Source of the DNA: Tepidiformaceae bacterium
Lineage (GTDB): Bacteria > Chloroflexota > Dehalococcoidia > Tepidiformales > Tepidiformaceae
Direction of reading: 5' to 3'
Assembly: GCA_958295975.1 (NCBI GenBank)
Contig: OY282446.1
Span: forward strand, 1,341,289-1,405,288
Length of the DNA stretch: 64,000 bases
Shown here: in pieces, positions 10,867-29,665 of the stretch
How the letters are laid out: every line of letters begins with the position of its first letter
How positions within the stretch are numbered: the stretch's first letter is position 1
Program-made: the position numbers and the translations under genes
The notes under the pieces: generated by a model
What the model was told of the DNA's origin: nothing
Seen by the model: the letters and a program-made list of their open reading frames with translations, nothing else
Database searches by the model: none

Positions 10867-12426
10867 CTAGGATGCGCTTAGCTGTCGCCAGTTGGTGATC
10901 TGCTCCTGGAATGGGATCAGAAATTCGGCGATTTCTCTATCGCGATTCTCCGTTTCCATCTGCCCGACGATTCTGGCGATCTCGGCAGGAGCTCGGTTCA
11001 CTTCGGAAGCGAGCGCATCTAGTCTGGTCTTGGCAACATCACGCTGCTGAACATCCTCTCCCAACATCTGTTCGATGTCACTCATCCGTCGGCGTATGTC
11101 CTCGGAATTCATTCCCAAGGATGTCCCGTACTCCTCGTATCGAATCCTGAGCGTCTCCCAAATCCAGCATTCCGGAGAATTATTCCCGGGAAGGAACAAC
11201 GGCTGAACATTGCCTCCAGATTCGCTGGCCGCGCTCTTGATGCTGGATTCCATCTCCCGTGCATCACCATCCAGCACGAAGAGAAAGCTGTTCAGTTTGT
11301 TGAACTTGCCCAGTGTCCGCACATGGGCAGGGAATTCGTTCTTTCCCGCGTTCCTGCCGATGCTAAAATCCTCATGACGAAGGCCCATTCTCGTATTCAA
11401 CACGTCCAAGACGCCACGGACTACTCCTTCTGCGACTGCGTCTTCGCATAGAATCGAGATCCGGTCCCGTGATTGGCCATAAAGAGATCGCTGGAAGATG
11501 TCGCGATAGGCGGGCATCATCAGGACATCCGCTGTCTTGTCGTCTCGTTCCAAAAAGATCCGCGCATCCTGGGGAACGCTGTCCAGTATCACGGGGCTGT
11601 GTGAGGCGACGATGATTTGCAGTTGCTGACGCAGAGCAATGCGTTGAAGCTCCAGCATAACCTGTTGCTGTGTGTACGGATGTAGCCCAGTATCGACCTC
11701 ATCGATCAGAATCAATGCGTTATGCAGTTGAGAGATGTCTCTGGACATACGAATGATGGCCCGTTCTCCGGACGACATGTGGAACTCCGAATACCGCGTG
11801 TCATTCTCCGAATCCACTTCGGCAAAAAGAAGGTCACGGTTTTGAGTACTGATGACCGAGAGATTGCGGTAGCGTTGGCGCAGAATGCGATGGGCGAAGA
11901 CAAGAAGGTTGGGTGTCATGGGATCTGTAGTGTAATCCTTCCGCGCGATCTGCAAAATACTACGCACTTCCGAAGGATTGGAGAGATTCGAGAGCGTGCG
12001 GAGGTAAAGATGGCGTTCGGGTTGCGTGTTCCCCCTACGCTTCCAGCGATTTCCTCTCCTCCAATACATCGAAATTCGCTCATTCTCGTGCAAATAGTGG
12101 AACGCCAATTCCGTTTGCGCGGTATCGTCGGAAAGACTGCCCCCCTCTCGCTGATCCGTGAAGTTGGGGAAGAGCGTGCTGGGGACGAATTCGCGCGGTC
12201 CCCTGCCGGGCACGCGGTAGGCGCAGGCGCAGGCGAACAGCACCGTGGACTTTCCGCAGCCGTTCGGGCCAGCCAGCACGCAGACCGGGTAGTTGAACGG
12301 CACGCGCAGATCCCGGATACCACGGAAGTTTTTGACGCGGACTTCCAGCAGGGCATCATCACGCTGGGGACTGCTCGCGCGCAGGGCCCTCCACACTTCT
12401 TCGAGTTCGCTGGCGATCAGGGACAT
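10867..12426 (-). CDS. OLD-family ATPase with C-terminal TOPRIM-like nuclease domain, in a lower-GC island
   Basis: A 519-residue protein. The N-terminal half is an ABC/SMC-type ATPase: Walker A GPNGCGKST (~53-61), a signature SSGERAIIRM region, Walker B LILIDEVDTGLH (~234) and an H-loop ASHSP (~279). The second half has TOPRIM-like acidic motifs ILCEDAVAEG (~325) and FVLDGDAR (~380), as in overcoming-lysogenisation-defect nucleases. The gene is clearly less GC-rich and uses different codons than its neighbours, and has no partner gene (no UvrD-like GajB, no HNH PtuB). A TAAGAT -10-like box lies about 15 bp before the start. It is probably a mobile defence gene; whether it acts alone is unknown. 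Confidence 0.82.
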   Translation of the reverse strand: MSLIASELEEVWRALRASSPQRDDALLEVRVKNFRGIRDLRVPFNYPVCVLAGPNGCGKSTVLFACACAYRVPGRGPREFVPSTLFPNFTDQREGGSLSDDTAQTELAFHYLHENERISMYWRRGNRWKRRGNTQPERHLYLRTLSNLSNPSEVRSILQIARKDYTTDPMTPNLLVFAHRILRQRYRNLSVISTQNRDLLFAEVDSENDTRYSEFHMSSGERAIIRMSRDISQLHNALILIDEVDTGLHPYTQQQVMLELQRIALRQQLQIIVASHSPVILDSVPQDARIFLERDDKTADVLMMPAYRDIFQRSLYGQSRDRISILCEDAVAEGVVRGVLDVLNTRMGLRHEDFSIGRNAGKNEFPAHVRTLGKFNKLNSFLFVLDGDAREMESSIKSAASESGGNVQPLFLPGNNSPECWIWETLRIRYEEYGTSLGMNSEDIRRRMSDIEQMLGEDVQQRDVAKTRLDALASEVNRAPAEIARIVGQMETENRDREIAEFLIPFQEQITNWRQLSAS

Positions 12427-19691: not shown

Positions 19692-20246
19692 TCAGACGGC
19701 GCGCACGCCCTCCACGATCAGGCCCGCCGCCAGCGCCACCGCCAGCGCCCCCGTGAGCCGCGCCAGCGCGTCCGCCACGGGCCGGCTCCGTCCCGCCGCC
19801 AGCGCCGTCGCGCCCGCCGCGACCGCGATCGCGATCAGCGCCGCCACTGCCGCGCCCGCCTCGTCCCCGTCGCCGCCGCGGGAGATGGCGGCGGCCAGCG
19901 CCGCGGGCCCGGCCAGCAGCGGGAAGGCCAGCGGGAAGAGCGCCCCGCGCCAGCCGCCCTCCGCCGGCCACGCGAACGGCCCGAAGACGATCGTCGCCGC
20001 GCCCGTCGCCGCCAGCACGATCCCGGCGGAGACGCGGAACGTCTCCGCCTCCAACTCCAGCGCCGACAGGATCGCGTCCGCGCCGAAGGCGACGGCCAGC
20101 AGCGGCGCGGCGGCGGCGAGGAAGCCGATCGCCGCCGCCAGCGCCCGCGCGCGCCCGCGGTCGGGGGCCGCCGTCATGGCGGCGAAGGCCGCCGCCGGGT
20201 TCACCGCCGCGGCCAGCAGCAGGAGCGTCAGCCAGAAGCCGCTCAC
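19692..20246 (-). CDS. MarC/UPF0056-like integral membrane protein
   Basis: A 184-residue, very hydrophobic protein with about six membrane helices. The GTG start at 20246 lies in a GTGA overlap with the upstream AlbA_2 gene. The block AFPLLAGPAALAAAIS, and ETFRVSAGIVLAATG before it, match the MarC family pattern (PLAIPLLAGPG and FRIAGGILL). The length is slightly short for the family. MarC proteins are widespread membrane proteins without a settled substrate. Translational coupling links it to the regulator upstream. Confidence 0.7.
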   Translation of the reverse strand: MSGFWLTLLLLAAAVNPAAAFAAMTAAPDRGRARALAAAIGFLAAAAPLLAVAFGADAILSALELEAETFRVSAGIVLAATGAATIVFGPFAWPAEGGWRGALFPLAFPLLAGPAALAAAISRGGDGDEAGAAVAALIAIAVAAGATALAAGRSRPVADALARLTGALAVALAAGLIVEGVRAV

Positions 20247-21913
20247 GGTCCCCCCTCGCGTCCCGCCGCGCCGCTGGCGGCTGCCGGATGGTAACGGCGG
20301 GCGCGCGTCTTGCCCACGGCGCGAACGAGCCCGGCGGCGACGAGTTCGTTCAGCAGCGTGCGGATGGCCGTCCGGTCCTCGCCAAGCAGCCGCGCGCCCT
20401 CGGCGGTCGAGATGCTTCCGCGCTGGTCGATTTCGTTGAGGAGCGCCTGCCTCCGGCGTCGCTGCGCCTCCATGCCCTCGCTGCCGGCGCGGAGCACGAC
20501 CTCGTGGGACAGCACGTAGCGCGTCCCGCCCCCGCGTCCCGTTCGCACGAGCAGGCCCTTCGCCACGGCCCCCGCGAGGATGTCGCCGGGGTCGGCCCCG
20601 GGCAGCAGCTCCCGCAGCCGCCGCCGCGTAATCGCTCCCCGCTGCCGCGTTTCCACGAGCGCGAGGCGCTCCTCCCTGCTCATCGGGAAGTCGGCGAGCA
20701 GGGCGATCCACGCCTGATCGTCGATGCTCACGAGGATGCGGTTGTACAGGGTCACGGTCACCGAGCTGTCGGTGGCGCTGATGTCCGGCGGGGTCATGAG
20801 GCGCGCGTCCATCTCGCGGAACATGCGGTCCACGCCCTCGCCGTACTCCTCCACCAGGCCCAGCGTCTTGAGCACGCCCATCAGCCTGCGGTTGCGGCTG
20901 TAGTGCTCCTCGCGCATGTTCTCCACCGTGATGTGGCCCGGCAGCGGCCCCGGGCTGCGGATCTCCAGGCGATCATCCCAGATCGTGATGTCCGTGGTCG
21001 CTCCCGTCAGCCCGTAGTCCCGGTGCGCGAGCGCATTGAGCACGGCTTCCCGGATGACGGCGTCCGGGTATTCCGGCAGCGCCTCGCGCCGCGCCCCGGC
21101 CACGACCTCGTACCGCTTCGTGTGGCGTTCGATGAACCGCAGGCAGCACGCGAGGACGTCCAGCAGCGGGCCGGAGCACTCCTCGCGGTCGAGGGAGGCC
21201 CCCGGGCCCGGGCCGATGCCCTCCCTCCGCACGAGCTGCACGGCGGCGCCCCGCACCGATTGCCGCGGGTCCGCGGCGAAGAGCAGCACCGCCGCCCTCA
21301 GCGCGCGGAAGGGAGGCTCGGCCGTGAGCGCGACGCCGAGGTCGACGAGCGCGCGCGGGATGCGGGCGCGCCGCACCGCTGGCCTGCCGCTGGCGGCGAG
21401 CGCCTCGTTCACGCGCGACAGATCGAGGGTCTCGGGCCCGTACCCGACCGGCTCGTCCTCGCCGGAGCGCTCTTCCCGCTCGCGCACGAAGCGCGCGAGC
21501 ATGTCGCCGCGTAGCGGTTGGCAGTCGCCGCCCACGCGCCGCAGGAGCCTGCCGTCGGGAGCGGTCACGATCCGCCCGCGCACTTCGGGAACTGCGGTCA
21601 CGGTCAGCTCGGCGTCGCCCACGTGGATGGCGCGAACCTGCACCTCGACGTGGCACTCGTTGGCGAAGCGCGTGATCCGGTCGAGGGTTCTCTGCGAGAA
21701 CGGGCAGCCGACGATGTTGAGGTCCCGATCGACCCCGTGGACGATCAAGCCCCCGTCGGTCATCGCCATGGCCGGGATCGTGTCGAGGATCTCCCGGGAG
21801 ACCCCGCGCTTGAAGTCGAGCGCCTCGTGCTCGATCCGGCCGAACCGCGCCCAGAACTCATCGTCCGTGAGGCGATCGGGGAGTTCGGCGAGGTCGTGGC
21901 GGGCGGGAACCAT
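20243..21913 (-). CDS. AlbA_2 / Schlafen-like ATP-binding protein with winged-helix C-terminus (COG2865-like regulator)
   Basis: About 556 residues from the ATG at 21913 (MVPARHDL); an ATG at 21961 would add 16 residues but runs back across the first leader repeat, so the shorter start is preferred. Residues ~15-125 form the AlbA_2 domain (ALDFKRGVSREIL, MTDGGLIVHGVD). Next comes a GHKL-type ATPase-like region with LNALAHRDYG and EYGEGVDRMFREM, typical of HATPase_c_4 proteins. The last ~170 residues contain two winged-helix-like segments. Proteins of this layout are taken as transcriptional regulators or RNA-processing factors; the role here is unknown. The leader holds two ~77-bp diverged repeats. 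Confidence 0.8.
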   Translation of the reverse strand: MVPARHDLAELPDRLTDDEFWARFGRIEHEALDFKRGVSREILDTIPAMAMTDGGLIVHGVDRDLNIVGCPFSQRTLDRITRFANECHVEVQVRAIHVGDAELTVTAVPEVRGRIVTAPDGRLLRRVGGDCQPLRGDMLARFVREREERSGEDEPVGYGPETLDLSRVNEALAASGRPAVRRARIPRALVDLGVALTAEPPFRALRAAVLLFAADPRQSVRGAAVQLVRREGIGPGPGASLDREECSGPLLDVLACCLRFIERHTKRYEVVAGARREALPEYPDAVIREAVLNALAHRDYGLTGATTDITIWDDRLEIRSPGPLPGHITVENMREEHYSRNRRLMGVLKTLGLVEEYGEGVDRMFREMDARLMTPPDISATDSSVTVTLYNRILVSIDDQAWIALLADFPMSREERLALVETRQRGAITRRRLRELLPGADPGDILAGAVAKGLLVRTGRGGGTRYVLSHEVVLRAGSEGMEAQRRRRQALLNEIDQRGSISTAEGARLLGEDRTAIRTLLNELVAAGLVRAVGKTRARRYHPAAASGAAGREGGP

Positions 21914-21917
21914 GCGG

Positions 21918-22071
21918 AGATGATAAGACAAACTTGGTCCTGTAAACCAGTCATAGACCATTCACAGGAATATGTTCGCCAAAATCATCGCGGAAGATGA
22001 TAAGATAAACTAGTCCGCAAAATCAGCTGATTAATCTATTTGGGAATATGTTTGTCGAAACATGCTTCCCG
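21918..22071. repeat. Two diverged tandem copies of a ~77-bp leader element
   Basis: Unit 1 starts at 21918 and unit 2 at 21995. Each begins with the 17-mer AGATGATAAGAyAAACT (one mismatch, 21918-21934 and 21995-22011), and each has GGAATATGTTyGyCrAAA about 49 bp later (21967 and 22043). Between them similarity is weaker. Unit 2 also has a perfect palindrome AATCAGCTGATT (22021-22032) and ATGTTT-4-AAACAT (22048-22063). The stretch is AT-rich compared with its surroundings and lies directly before the AlbA_2 gene, so it is likely a duplicated promoter/operator. Confidence 0.7.
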
Positions 22072-25532: not shown

Positions 25533-26402
<870 letters not shown>

Positions 26403-26412
26403 ACTCGATCCC

Positions 26413-26676
26413 ATGCCGCCCCTTCACTCCGACGCCGCCATCCCCCCGGGGGAGTTCCTGCGCGAGCACCTCGACGACCTCGGCATGAGCCAGACCGAGC
26501 TCGCGCGCCGTATCGGACGCCCGCGCCAGGTCGTCAACGAGATCGCGTGCGGGAAGAAGGCCATCACCGCCCAGACCGCGCTCCGGCTGGAGCGCGCGCT
26601 GGAGACGCCCGCGCACGTCTGGCTGGGGCTGGAGCAGGAGTACCGGCTCGCGCTCGCGCGCCAGCGCCCCGCCTGA
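26413..26676 (+). CDS. HigA-like XRE-family antitoxin/regulator
   Basis: An 87-residue helix-turn-helix protein. The N-terminal IPPGEFLREHLDDLGMSQTELARRIGRPRQVVNEI and the later ALRLERALETPAHVWLGLEQEYRL segment match the HigA family antidote pattern. HigA normally follows a HigB mRNA-cleaving toxin, but no HigB is found on either side. It may be a solitary regulator or a leftover of a broken module. It lies just before the restriction-modification island. Confidence 0.75.
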   Translation: MPPLHSDAAIPPGEFLREHLDDLGMSQTELARRIGRPRQVVNEIACGKKAITAQTALRLERALETPAHVWLGLEQEYRLALARQRPA

Positions 26677-26743
26677 GCCTGGCCTCTGGTTGCGGGCGAA
26701 CGGCCATTGCCCTAGGCTCAGCCCAACTTTTCCGGAGGAGCCT

Positions 26744-26785
26744 GTGACCGACGGCGAGACTTCGGAGATTTACTCGGTGCTCTAG
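26744..26785 (+). pseudogene. 5' remnant of a small gene interrupted by the restriction-modification island
   Basis: A GGAGGAG ribosome-binding site at 26734-26740 precedes GTG at 26744 and a 13-codon frame (VTDGETSEIYSVL) ending in TAG. Codon use is GC-rich like the host, and composition drops right after it. The matching 3' end seems to lie beyond the restriction-modification genes (28380-28445), where a SHOCT-like tail ends. Joined, they would make a short SHOCT-domain protein. This is inference from position and composition; a short leader peptide is the alternative. Confidence 0.35.
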
Positions 26786-26849
26786 GAACTGGACGGCGGT
26801 ATCGCCTCTGTCTGCCAGACTAGATGTACTGAGAAGGGAGATGAATCGA

Positions 26850-27758
26850 ATGGTCACCACGCTTTCTCCTGACACCAGTGAACTCGCGCTTACGGAGCAG
26901 CATGGCGAGTACATCGGCGATCTTCAGCGTGCCATTTTCTACTGCGAGAGCAGCGAGAACATGTCGCATATTCCCGATGCATCCGTTCATCTCACTGTTA
27001 CGAGCCCGCCTTACTGGAGCGCTATCGACTACGACGTTCACGTCAGTGATCGAACGGCGTGGCATCGCAACGGAGCGTACAATAGGGCTGGCAACGACTT
27101 CGATGACTGGTTGACTACCATGGAGCGCGTCTTCGCCGAGACCCTGCGCGTGACTGCCCCCGGTGGCTTCTGCGCCGTCGTTATGGGCAGTATTCTCAAG
27201 GAAGGCAGACGGCTGCCGTTGCCGCAGTATCTGACCGTTCGGATGTGTGATATCGGCTGGGAGTTTCAGGAGGAGATCGTCTGGAACAAGGTGACCGGGG
27301 GAGTGGGACGCGCGGGATCGTTCATTCAGCACCCGCGCGCGGGCTACTACTATCCGAACATCATGACCGAAAGCATTCTGGTGTTTCGTCGCGAGGGCGA
27401 GAAGCGACGCGGATCGGCTATCGCACTTCCCATCGATGACGTGTTCACGCGCGATATCGCCAATAACATCTGGCACATCGCGCCTGTGCCGCCGAAGCAG
27501 ATCGAGCATCCGTGTCCGTTTCCCAGTGAGCTGGTTCGCCGTCTCGTGCGGCTCTACAGCGACGAGGGCGACACGGTGCTTGATCCATTCGTGGGAAGTG
27601 GTACGACTGTCAGCGTGGCCGTTCGCGAGGATCGATACGGCATCGGCTACGACATCGAGCAGACGTACATTGACATCGCACGCGAGATGGTGATTCATCC
27701 GCCTACGCCTCGCAAGAATCAACTCATTCCGGCGGTGAGGAAGGTGGCTGTTCGATGA
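26850..27758 (+). CDS. Type II DNA methyltransferase, beta-class (N4-cytosine or N6-adenine)
   Basis: About 302 residues. The ATG at 26850 was preferred over 26841 because the GGGAG ribosome-binding site ends at 26840, directly against the earlier ATG but 9 bp from the later one. Catalytic motif IV TSPPYW (residues ~51-56) comes before the AdoMet-binding motif I DPFVGSGTT (~245), the order of beta-class enzymes; an SPPY motif is usual for N4-cytosine methylation. The gene is visibly lower in GC than its neighbours. Its TGA overlaps the restriction enzyme's ATG, so the pair is translationally coupled. Confidence 0.9.
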   Translation: MVTTLSPDTSELALTEQHGEYIGDLQRAIFYCESSENMSHIPDASVHLTVTSPPYWSAIDYDVHVSDRTAWHRNGAYNRAGNDFDDWLTTMERVFAETLRVTAPGGFCAVVMGSILKEGRRLPLPQYLTVRMCDIGWEFQEEIVWNKVTGGVGRAGSFIQHPRAGYYYPNIMTESILVFRREGEKRRGSAIALPIDDVFTRDIANNIWHIAPVPPKQIEHPCPFPSELVRRLVRLYSDEGDTVLDPFVGSGTTVSVAVREDRYGIGYDIEQTYIDIAREMVIHPPTPRKNQLIPAVRKVAVR

Positions 27759-28378
27759 ATTCGCGATTCAATGTCGAGCGGCGTGCGTTCGAATACCTGC
27801 GCGAGAACATGCCGGATGATGCGCGCACCGAGTTTCTTGACGCACTCAAACAGATCGTGCTTCAGTACAATACCACCATTCCCGAGAATCGCTTTACCGT
27901 GGGCGGCGTCGTGGAGCATCTGGTGTGTGCGCTGCTCAAGGCTACTGGTCTGAACGTCACTTTCATGGCAGACGAGGATCATGGCTACGATCTGATGCTG
28001 CCGCATGGCAAAGGTCTAAGTGTCAAGAGTCAGTTCACGCGTAATCGTCAAGGCATTGGTCTCATCAACACTAGAGGCAACACCAAGCCGGAACGATGGA
28101 AAGATGCCACACTGTTTGTCATCAGAGATACGGGTATCGTCTACGGAGACGCGGACGTTCCAGGAATCGGCAGTTTTCTGAATCCGAAAGGTGATCAGCT
28201 TGTGCTGCGTCCCGGCGGACTATCTCTGCTGGAGAGCGATCCCACGCGTGTGATCGCAATGCCTGTTCCCACAAAGCCTGATAAGAATGCGGCGGGTAAA
28301 AGCCTCAAGGTCAGCACGTCGTTGGCTCGCGAGTTGCTTCAGCGCTATCCCGTTCTGCGGGATGCGTATATGCCTTAG
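27755..28378 (+). CDS. Putative type II restriction endonuclease (PD-(D/E)XK fold)
   Basis: A 207-residue protein starting inside an ATGA overlap with the methyltransferase. I do not recognise the exact family. A possible PD-(D/E)XK active site is formed by E54 (VVEHLV), D79 (GYDLML) and S89-V90-K91 (LSVKSQ), with the expected spacing of a D-(n)-(E/S)xK pair. Position directly after a DNA methyltransferase and shared low GC make it the cognate endonuclease; recognition sequence is unknown. Confidence 0.75.
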   Translation: MNSRFNVERRAFEYLRENMPDDARTEFLDALKQIVLQYNTTIPENRFTVGGVVEHLVCALLKATGLNVTFMADEDHGYDLMLPHGKGLSVKSQFTRNRQGIGLINTRGNTKPERWKDATLFVIRDTGIVYGDADVPGIGSFLNPKGDQLVLRPGGLSLLESDPTRVIAMPVPTKPDKNAAGKSLKVSTSLARELLQRYPVLRDAYMP

Positions 28379-28379
28379 C

Positions 28380-28445
28380 CACTCTGGCCAAGGCATCACC
28401 CAGAAAGAGTTCGACGCCCAGAAGGCCCGCCTGCTCGGTTCCTGA
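28380..28445 (+). pseudogene. 3' remnant of a SHOCT-domain gene after the restriction-modification island
   Basis: Two bases after the endonuclease stop, the frame reads HSGQGITQKEFDAQKARLL-GS-stop, which is the C-terminal half of a SHOCT (short C-terminal) domain: a glycine turn, I-T-x-x-E-F, and K-A-x-L-L. It lacks a start codon and its other half. GC-rich codon use returns here, marking the right border of the island. The likely 5' part is at 26744. Confidence 0.5.
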
Positions 28446-28501: not shown

Positions 28502-29665
28502 ATGCCCCGCCGCTCCCCCGTCGCCTCGCGCACGTCCGTCTTCTCCGAGTCCGTCATCCGCGAGATGACGCGCCTCGCCTTCCAGCACGGCGCCATCAAC
28601 CTCGCCCAGGGCTTCCCCGACTTCCCCGCCCCCGACTTCGTCAAGCGCGCCGCCGTCGAGGCCATCGAGGCCGACGTGAACCAGTACGCCATCACCTGGG
28701 GCGATCCCCGCCTGCGCGCCGCCATCGCCGCCAAGTCCCGCCGCCACTACGGCCTCGAGCTCGACCCCGAACGCGAGGTGACCGTCACCTGCGGCGCCAC
28801 CGAGGCCATGATGGCCGCCATGCTCGCCTTCGTCGAACCCGGCGACGAGGTGGTCGTGTTCGAGCCCTTCTACGAGAACTACGTGCCCGACGCCGCCATG
28901 AGCGGGGCCGTCCTGCGCTTCGTCACCCTGCGTGGCCCCGACTTCGCCTTCGACCCCGACGAGCTGCGCGCCGCCTTCGGCCCCCGCACGAAGGCCATCA
29001 TCGTCAACTCCCCCAACAACCCCAGCGGCAAGGTGTTCGACCGCGCCGAGCTGCGGCAAATCGCCGCCCTCTGCCAGGAGTTCGACTGCCTCTGCTTCAC
29101 CGACGAGATCTACGAGCACATCCTCTTCGACGGGCGCGCGCACGTGCCCATGGCCACGCTGCCGGGCATGGAGGAGCGCACCGTCGCCATCGGCGGCCTC
29201 TCCAAGACCTTCAGCGTCACGGGCTGGCGGATCGGCTACGTGCTCGCGCCCCCGCCCCTCAGCGAGGCCGTGCGCAAGGTGCACGACTTCCTCACCGTGG
29301 GCGCGCCCGCCCCCCTCCAGCGGGCCGCCGCCGTCGCCATCGAGCGCGGCGACGGCTACTACCCCGAGCTGCGCGCCATGTACGAGGGCAAGCGCGACCG
29401 CCTGCTCGTGGCCCTGCGCGAGGCCGGCTTCGCCTGCCACAAGCCCGCGGGCGCCTACTACGTCATGGCCGCCTTCGACGGCCTCGGCTTCGACGGCGAC
29501 GACACTGCCTTCGCCCTGCACCTCATCGAGCGCGCGGGCGTGGCCCCCGTGCCCGGCTCCAGCTTCTACCGCGACGCGGAGGCGGGCGCGCGTTTCGTGC
29601 GCTTCACCTTCTCCAAGTCCGACGCCACGCTGTCCGAAGCCGCCCGCCGCCTCGCCGCCCTCTAG
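28502..29665 (+). CDS. Class I/II PLP-dependent aminotransferase (kynurenine/methionine aminotransferase-like)
   Basis: A 387-residue fold-type I enzyme. The N-terminal INLAQGFPDFPAPD motif is typical of the kynurenine-oxoglutarate / methionine (YbdL-like) transaminase group. NSPNNPSGKVF binds the cofactor region, DEIYEH holds the PLP-contacting Asp, and the Schiff-base Lys is K235 in GGLSKTFSVTGWRIGY. A C-terminal Arg in RFVRFTFSK binds the substrate carboxylate. It ends tail to tail with the OGG1-like gene. Confidence 0.9.
   Translation: MPRRSPVASRTSVFSESVIREMTRLAFQHGAINLAQGFPDFPAPDFVKRAAVEAIEADVNQYAITWGDPRLRAAIAAKSRRHYGLELDPEREVTVTCGATEAMMAAMLAFVEPGDEVVVFEPFYENYVPDAAMSGAVLRFVTLRGPDFAFDPDELRAAFGPRTKAIIVNSPNNPSGKVFDRAELRQIAALCQEFDCLCFTDEIYEHILFDGRAHVPMATLPGMEERTVAIGGLSKTFSVTGWRIGYVLAPPPLSEAVRKVHDFLTVGAPAPLQRAAAVAIERGDGYYPELRAMYEGKRDRLLVALREAGFACHKPAGAYYVMAAFDGLGFDGDDTAFALHLIERAGVAPVPGSSFYRDAEAGARFVRFTFSKSDATLSEAARRLAAL

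Follow-up and report, generated by a model that had tools for sequence, protein, structure and literature searches.

ThaI, the restriction enzyme to which the endonuclease described here comes closest in predicted fold, recognises CGCG. Some restriction-modification (RM) systems have entered genomes with a long target duplication, and others have been carried by insertion sequences (PMC3031569 and references therein). Their movement between bacteria is already known, and RM systems are reported to be enriched in sponge symbionts, where they are among the lateral transfers (PMC8163846). We analysed a 64,000-nucleotide stretch of DNA (the window) from a Tepidiformaceae bacterium whose 2.40-Mb genome is a single contig. 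Our results indicate that it very probably carries a Type II RM pair that is complete and was acquired horizontally, lying between a sucD-higA gene pair and an aminotransferase gene and abutting a SHOCT remnant (Table 1).

Table 1. Features of the RM locus and its surroundings, in window coordinates
Feature	Coordinates	Strand	Basis
Succinyl-CoA ligase subunit alpha (sucD), flanking gene	25533..26402	+	NCBIfam NF004230/TIGR01019 above cut-off
HigA-family antitoxin, flanking gene	26413..26676	+	NCBIfam TIGR02607 above its cut-off
GGAGGAG (26734-26740), GTG (26744) and 13-codon frame, VTDGETSEIYSVL then stop	26734..26785	+	Sequence; candidate start of broken gene
DNA methyltransferase, 305 aa	26841..27758	+	PF01555, E 1.3e-38; PADLOC MTase_II, E 1.7e-64; PDB 2zie, E 2e-30
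Type II restriction endonuclease, PD-(D/E)XK, 207 aa	27755..28378	+	Linkage, alignment, predicted fold
Remnant: SHOCT C-terminal half, GITQKEFDAQKARLLGS then stop	28392..28445	+	Pfam PF09851, positions 15-28 of 28
PLP-dependent aminotransferase, flanking gene	28502..29665	+	PF00155, E 4.7e-66

The RM stretch spans ~1.55 kb and has a GC content of 0.54-0.60, compared with mostly 0.70-0.75 outside it (500-nt intervals). The initial annotation had described low-GC methyltransferase and endonuclease genes at this position, and we confirmed two intact genes within the GC dip. No HigB gene was found beside the HigA-family antitoxin gene. Copies of this antitoxin with 74-77% identity occur in two congeners, where the neighbouring sequence is the end of another small gene; the antitoxin gene therefore seems to move independently as well. 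Elsewhere in the window, GC content drops again (0.53 at 11001-12000), and this second low-GC region contains the gene for a 519-aa protein (10867-12426, minus strand) that reads like an AAA/OLD-type ATPase and is possibly another acquired defence gene. A 572-aa protein (20243-21961, minus strand) combines Schlafen/AlbA_2 and RecG-like C-terminal ATPase domains; its gene adjoins unusually AT-rich intergenic DNA at ~21960-22065, in a genome of 73% GC.

The methyltransferase has its motifs in the order TSPPYW, then DPFVGSGTT, which places it in the beta-class N4/N6 type; its TSPPY motif suggests N4-cytosine methylation as the probable modification. An alternative start, ATG 26850, is better spaced from an AAGGGAG site. 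Scanning 84,980 species, one genome each, with this enzyme as the query yielded 79 loci, to which it is at most 62% identical. Thirteen places in the source genome resemble the window methyltransferase, suggesting that this genome encodes many DNA methyltransferases.

Searches of the product of the second gene against Pfam, NCBIfam, and PDB gave no match, and PADLOC returned solely a spurious one (E 0.08). When the protein itself was used to scan genomes, plasmids, phages, and viral contigs, no relatives were recovered. Relatives surfaced solely through the linked methyltransferase, next to which they lie in ~20 of the 79 loci. The start of the endonuclease gene shares 4 nt (ATGA) with the methyltransferase stop, and the same overlap recurs in 8 of 19 measured pairs. 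In an alignment of 21 endonuclease sequences, Glu-44, Asp-79, Ser-89, and Lys-91 are invariant and Glu-54 is nearly so (≥90%). Asp-79, the Ser-89-x-Lys-91 element, Glu-44, and Glu-54 together form a PD-(D/E)XK pattern.

Structure comparison likewise predicted a restriction-enzyme fold. The AlphaFold (AF2) model of the endonuclease (pLDDT 89, pTM 0.88) had PDB entry 3ndh as its top structural match, with Z 12.3 and an rmsd of 3.9 over 165 residues (model residues 10-182). Foldseek concurred (E 1.2e-3, probability 1.00). The search output describes 3ndh merely as a restriction endonuclease with DNA; we take it to be R.ThaI. NaeI followed at Z 9.5, and all other structures scored 7.5 or less. The model thus assigns a predicted ThaI fold to the endonuclease; searches for homology to ThaI with a single sequence or a profile gave no match. 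The linked methyltransferase and endonuclease genes, with no specificity or translocase subunits, conform to a Type II RM arrangement. Together, these data identify the product of the second gene as a restriction endonuclease.

The pair appears intact and complete, and we infer that it restricts and modifies DNA, although restriction could have been lost through subtle mutation. Beside nine close relatives of the methyltransferase, the endonuclease is broken, partial, or missing, suggesting that the cutting half has been lost repeatedly among them.

Next, we considered how the pair came to lie in this genome. The endonuclease was found neither in 8 congeners nor in 29 further genomes of the family. 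In a methyltransferase tree of 75 rows, the window enzyme fell within a 26-row clade with support 100/100, separate from most Chloroflexota rows and composed of Pseudomonadota (12), Poribacteria (9), Bacteroidota (2), Chloroflexota (2), and the window enzyme itself. Its end branch is long (1.14), which makes its sister group and exact place within the clade unsure. A recognisable endonuclease adjoins the methyltransferase in 18 of the 25 other members, being partial or broken in 2 of those 18. This mixed-phylum, fully supported clade argues for horizontal acquisition of the pair. The initial annotation had proposed such an acquisition into host DNA, and the GC dip, the absence from congeners, and the cross-phylum clade all bear it out.

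Poribacteria are sponge symbionts. Isolate prefixes such as APA, CAR, COS, RHO, and STY match sponge species of PMC8163846, and these names point to a possible link of the clade members with a sponge habitat. A more general scheme, which we regard as speculative and unlikely as a whole, would be that a compact cassette of two RM genes, whose ThaI-fold endonuclease goes unrecognised by sequence libraries, crosses phyla, perhaps for the most part between sponge symbionts, and enters small coding genes without a mobility gene or target duplication.

The endonuclease stop codon occupies 28376-28378, and the short frame that follows ends in the C-terminal half of a SHOCT domain. Taken alone, the Pfam score of this tail is modest (14.5 bits, with an E value of 0.12 for one genome). 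We therefore derived a position matrix from 21 further SHOCT domains, excluding this one, and used it to score ~604,000 15-mers from the window and the family loci. The tail scored 40.2 bits and the next best distinct 15-mer 19.4. The right tail is therefore genuine SHOCT sequence, far above chance, and the proposal that the right end of the island abuts a truncated SHOCT gene is upheld. The tail, comprising the last 17 codons, follows the C-terminal helix pattern GxITxxEFxxxKxxLL near the protein end, and its G-x-I-T spacing is broken at the junction. The first SHOCT helix, LxxLxxLxxxG, is absent in frame before this half; for this reason we term it a remnant rather than a SHOCT gene. The initial annotation was right in placing the C-terminal half just past the endonuclease stop; strictly, its description of the frame as lacking a start does not hold, since in-frame ATGs occur at 28362 and 28287, both within the endonuclease gene.

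On the left, the GGAGGAG site and the 13-codon GTG frame are present as described. GGAGGAG ahead of a start codon occurs at just 5 sites in the window, counting both strands, which makes it quite plausible that a real gene starts at GTG 26744. Read through its TAG, the left frame (VL, stop, ELD) can be aligned, without a frame change, with SHOCT columns one to six. The p value of this resemblance is ~0.04, ~4% of arbitrary start frames matching as well. Fusing the left and right frames brought no gain, the Pfam SHOCT score staying at 15-16 bits. We also tried ALATLA (28372-28389), which is out of frame, as a rival start of the helix; it scored about the same as the left candidate (~2% each), so that helix matches this short carry little weight. 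The composition had been said to change where the left frame stops. Instead, the best change point lies at ~26725, upstream of the GTG, and the 39-nt frame itself scores as island-like (+0.18 bits/nt); this change point is weak evidence, since a reduced GC content is also a property of intergenic DNA. The assignment of the left frame as half of a SHOCT gene is thus not established.

We then searched for the empty site and for signatures of insertion. No insertion sequence, transposase, integrase, or terminal inverted repeat was found at the island ends, and searches for sigma-70-type promoters, RNA families, and a tRNA attachment site were negative. A target-site duplication had been anticipated near 26785 and 28380; the longest direct repeat there is 6 nt, and shuffled sequences usually give at least 6. 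A joined SHOCT query did not recover the predicted uninterrupted reading frame, starting VTDGETSEIYSVL and ending ITQKEFDAQKARLLGS, in 38 genomes of the family, 393 of the class, or 400 of the phylum, samples that overlap. At the DNA level, neither fragment had a counterpart in 36 relatives, SHOCT-family searches gave no orthologue of the broken gene, and no SHOCT motif flanked the RM pair in the 79 related loci scanned.

In relatives we did not encounter the arrangement that the initial annotation had named as contrary to its reading, with both fragments present but no RM genes; the congeners carry other genes at both flanks. Their aminotransferases are 80-86% identical to that of the window. 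An empty site beside this gene was rejected as a candidate, since all 8 congeners have instead a DUF385-type gene upstream (read from translations), as was one after sucD or HigA, where different genes come next. The flanking gene order is broken in congeners, which limits the comparison of SHOCT sequences at the same place. In a genome of another genus, sucD, a DUF385-type gene, and the aminotransferase gene are contiguous and no SHOCT gene lies among them, indicating that the sucD-aminotransferase neighbourhood is old.

Three origins can be weighed for the sequences at the two junctions. In one, with about an even chance of being correct, the SHOCT tail is the leftover of a larger gene whose 5' part was deleted at or before the arrival of the RM pair, and the left GTG frame is an unrelated leader. 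In 89% of proteins, the SHOCT domain is found no more than 50 residues from the C-terminus (PMC3581485), and a larger gene, since lost, is accordingly no less likely to have left this tail than a 41-codon gene. All the Chloroflexota SHOCT domains that we read out end larger proteins, and the left half gains no support from the profile; a larger parent gene was, however, not found at this position in relatives. The reading of the initial annotation, a clean insertion into one SHOCT gene of ~41 codons running from GTG 26744 to 28445, in which the TAG would have arisen later and the left frame would supply the helix start VL-ELD, appears doubtful to us. It draws on the rare GGAGGAG site, the in-frame alignment of the left frame, and the genuine SHOCT character of the right half, and if true it would fix the precise insertion point. 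Against it stand the marginal left resemblance, the Pfam score unchanged on joining, the absence of the intact mini-gene from all the genomes sampled, the larger proteins that carry SHOCT tails in Chloroflexota, the lack of a target duplication, and the shift in composition ahead of the GTG.

An origin of the tail, the left frame, or both in the donor, arriving with the RM pair rather than forming part of the host sequence, is improbable. In composition the left frame resembles the island and the right tail is neutral, and no host orthologue of either fragment was found, all of which would be compatible with this origin. Against it, none of the 79 related loci scanned has a SHOCT motif beside the RM pair. 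Our verdict is an ordinary but well-supported RM acquisition next to gene debris, with the split mini-gene unproven.

Under the acquisition favoured here, the RM pair would have arrived by non-homologous joining, a likely route since neither transposase, integrase, terminal inverted repeat, nor target duplication was found. Of the SHOCT gene, all coding sequence ahead of the tail would have disappeared, most probably at this arrival or through later decay, and the insertion itself may have caused the truncation. Once in place, the methyltransferase would protect the host sites, and the predicted ThaI-fold PD-(D/E)XK endonuclease would cut incoming unmodified DNA.

Compared with the inserted RM systems of PMC3031569, the window locus lacks a detectable target duplication, insertion sequence, or integrase; it shares with them the presence of RM genes in one genome and not in its relatives, within foreign-looking DNA. 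The methyltransferase matches the profile of beta-class N4/N6 enzymes (PF01555; 2zie, a putative methylase) over its full length and differs from the described members in that its nearest relatives are uncharacterised genes, mostly from metagenome-assembled genomes. NaeI (1iaw, 1ev7), the second structural match of the endonuclease over 141 residues, differs from it by the lower score, 16% identity, and a length of ~300 aa against 207 aa. R.ThaI is the best structural match, also at 16% identity and with no sequence-profile match. What this analysis modestly adds is an endonuclease family for which Pfam, NCBIfam, and PADLOC have no model, and which is linked to a methyltransferase clade spanning at least four phyla and is tied to R.ThaI by its predicted fold.
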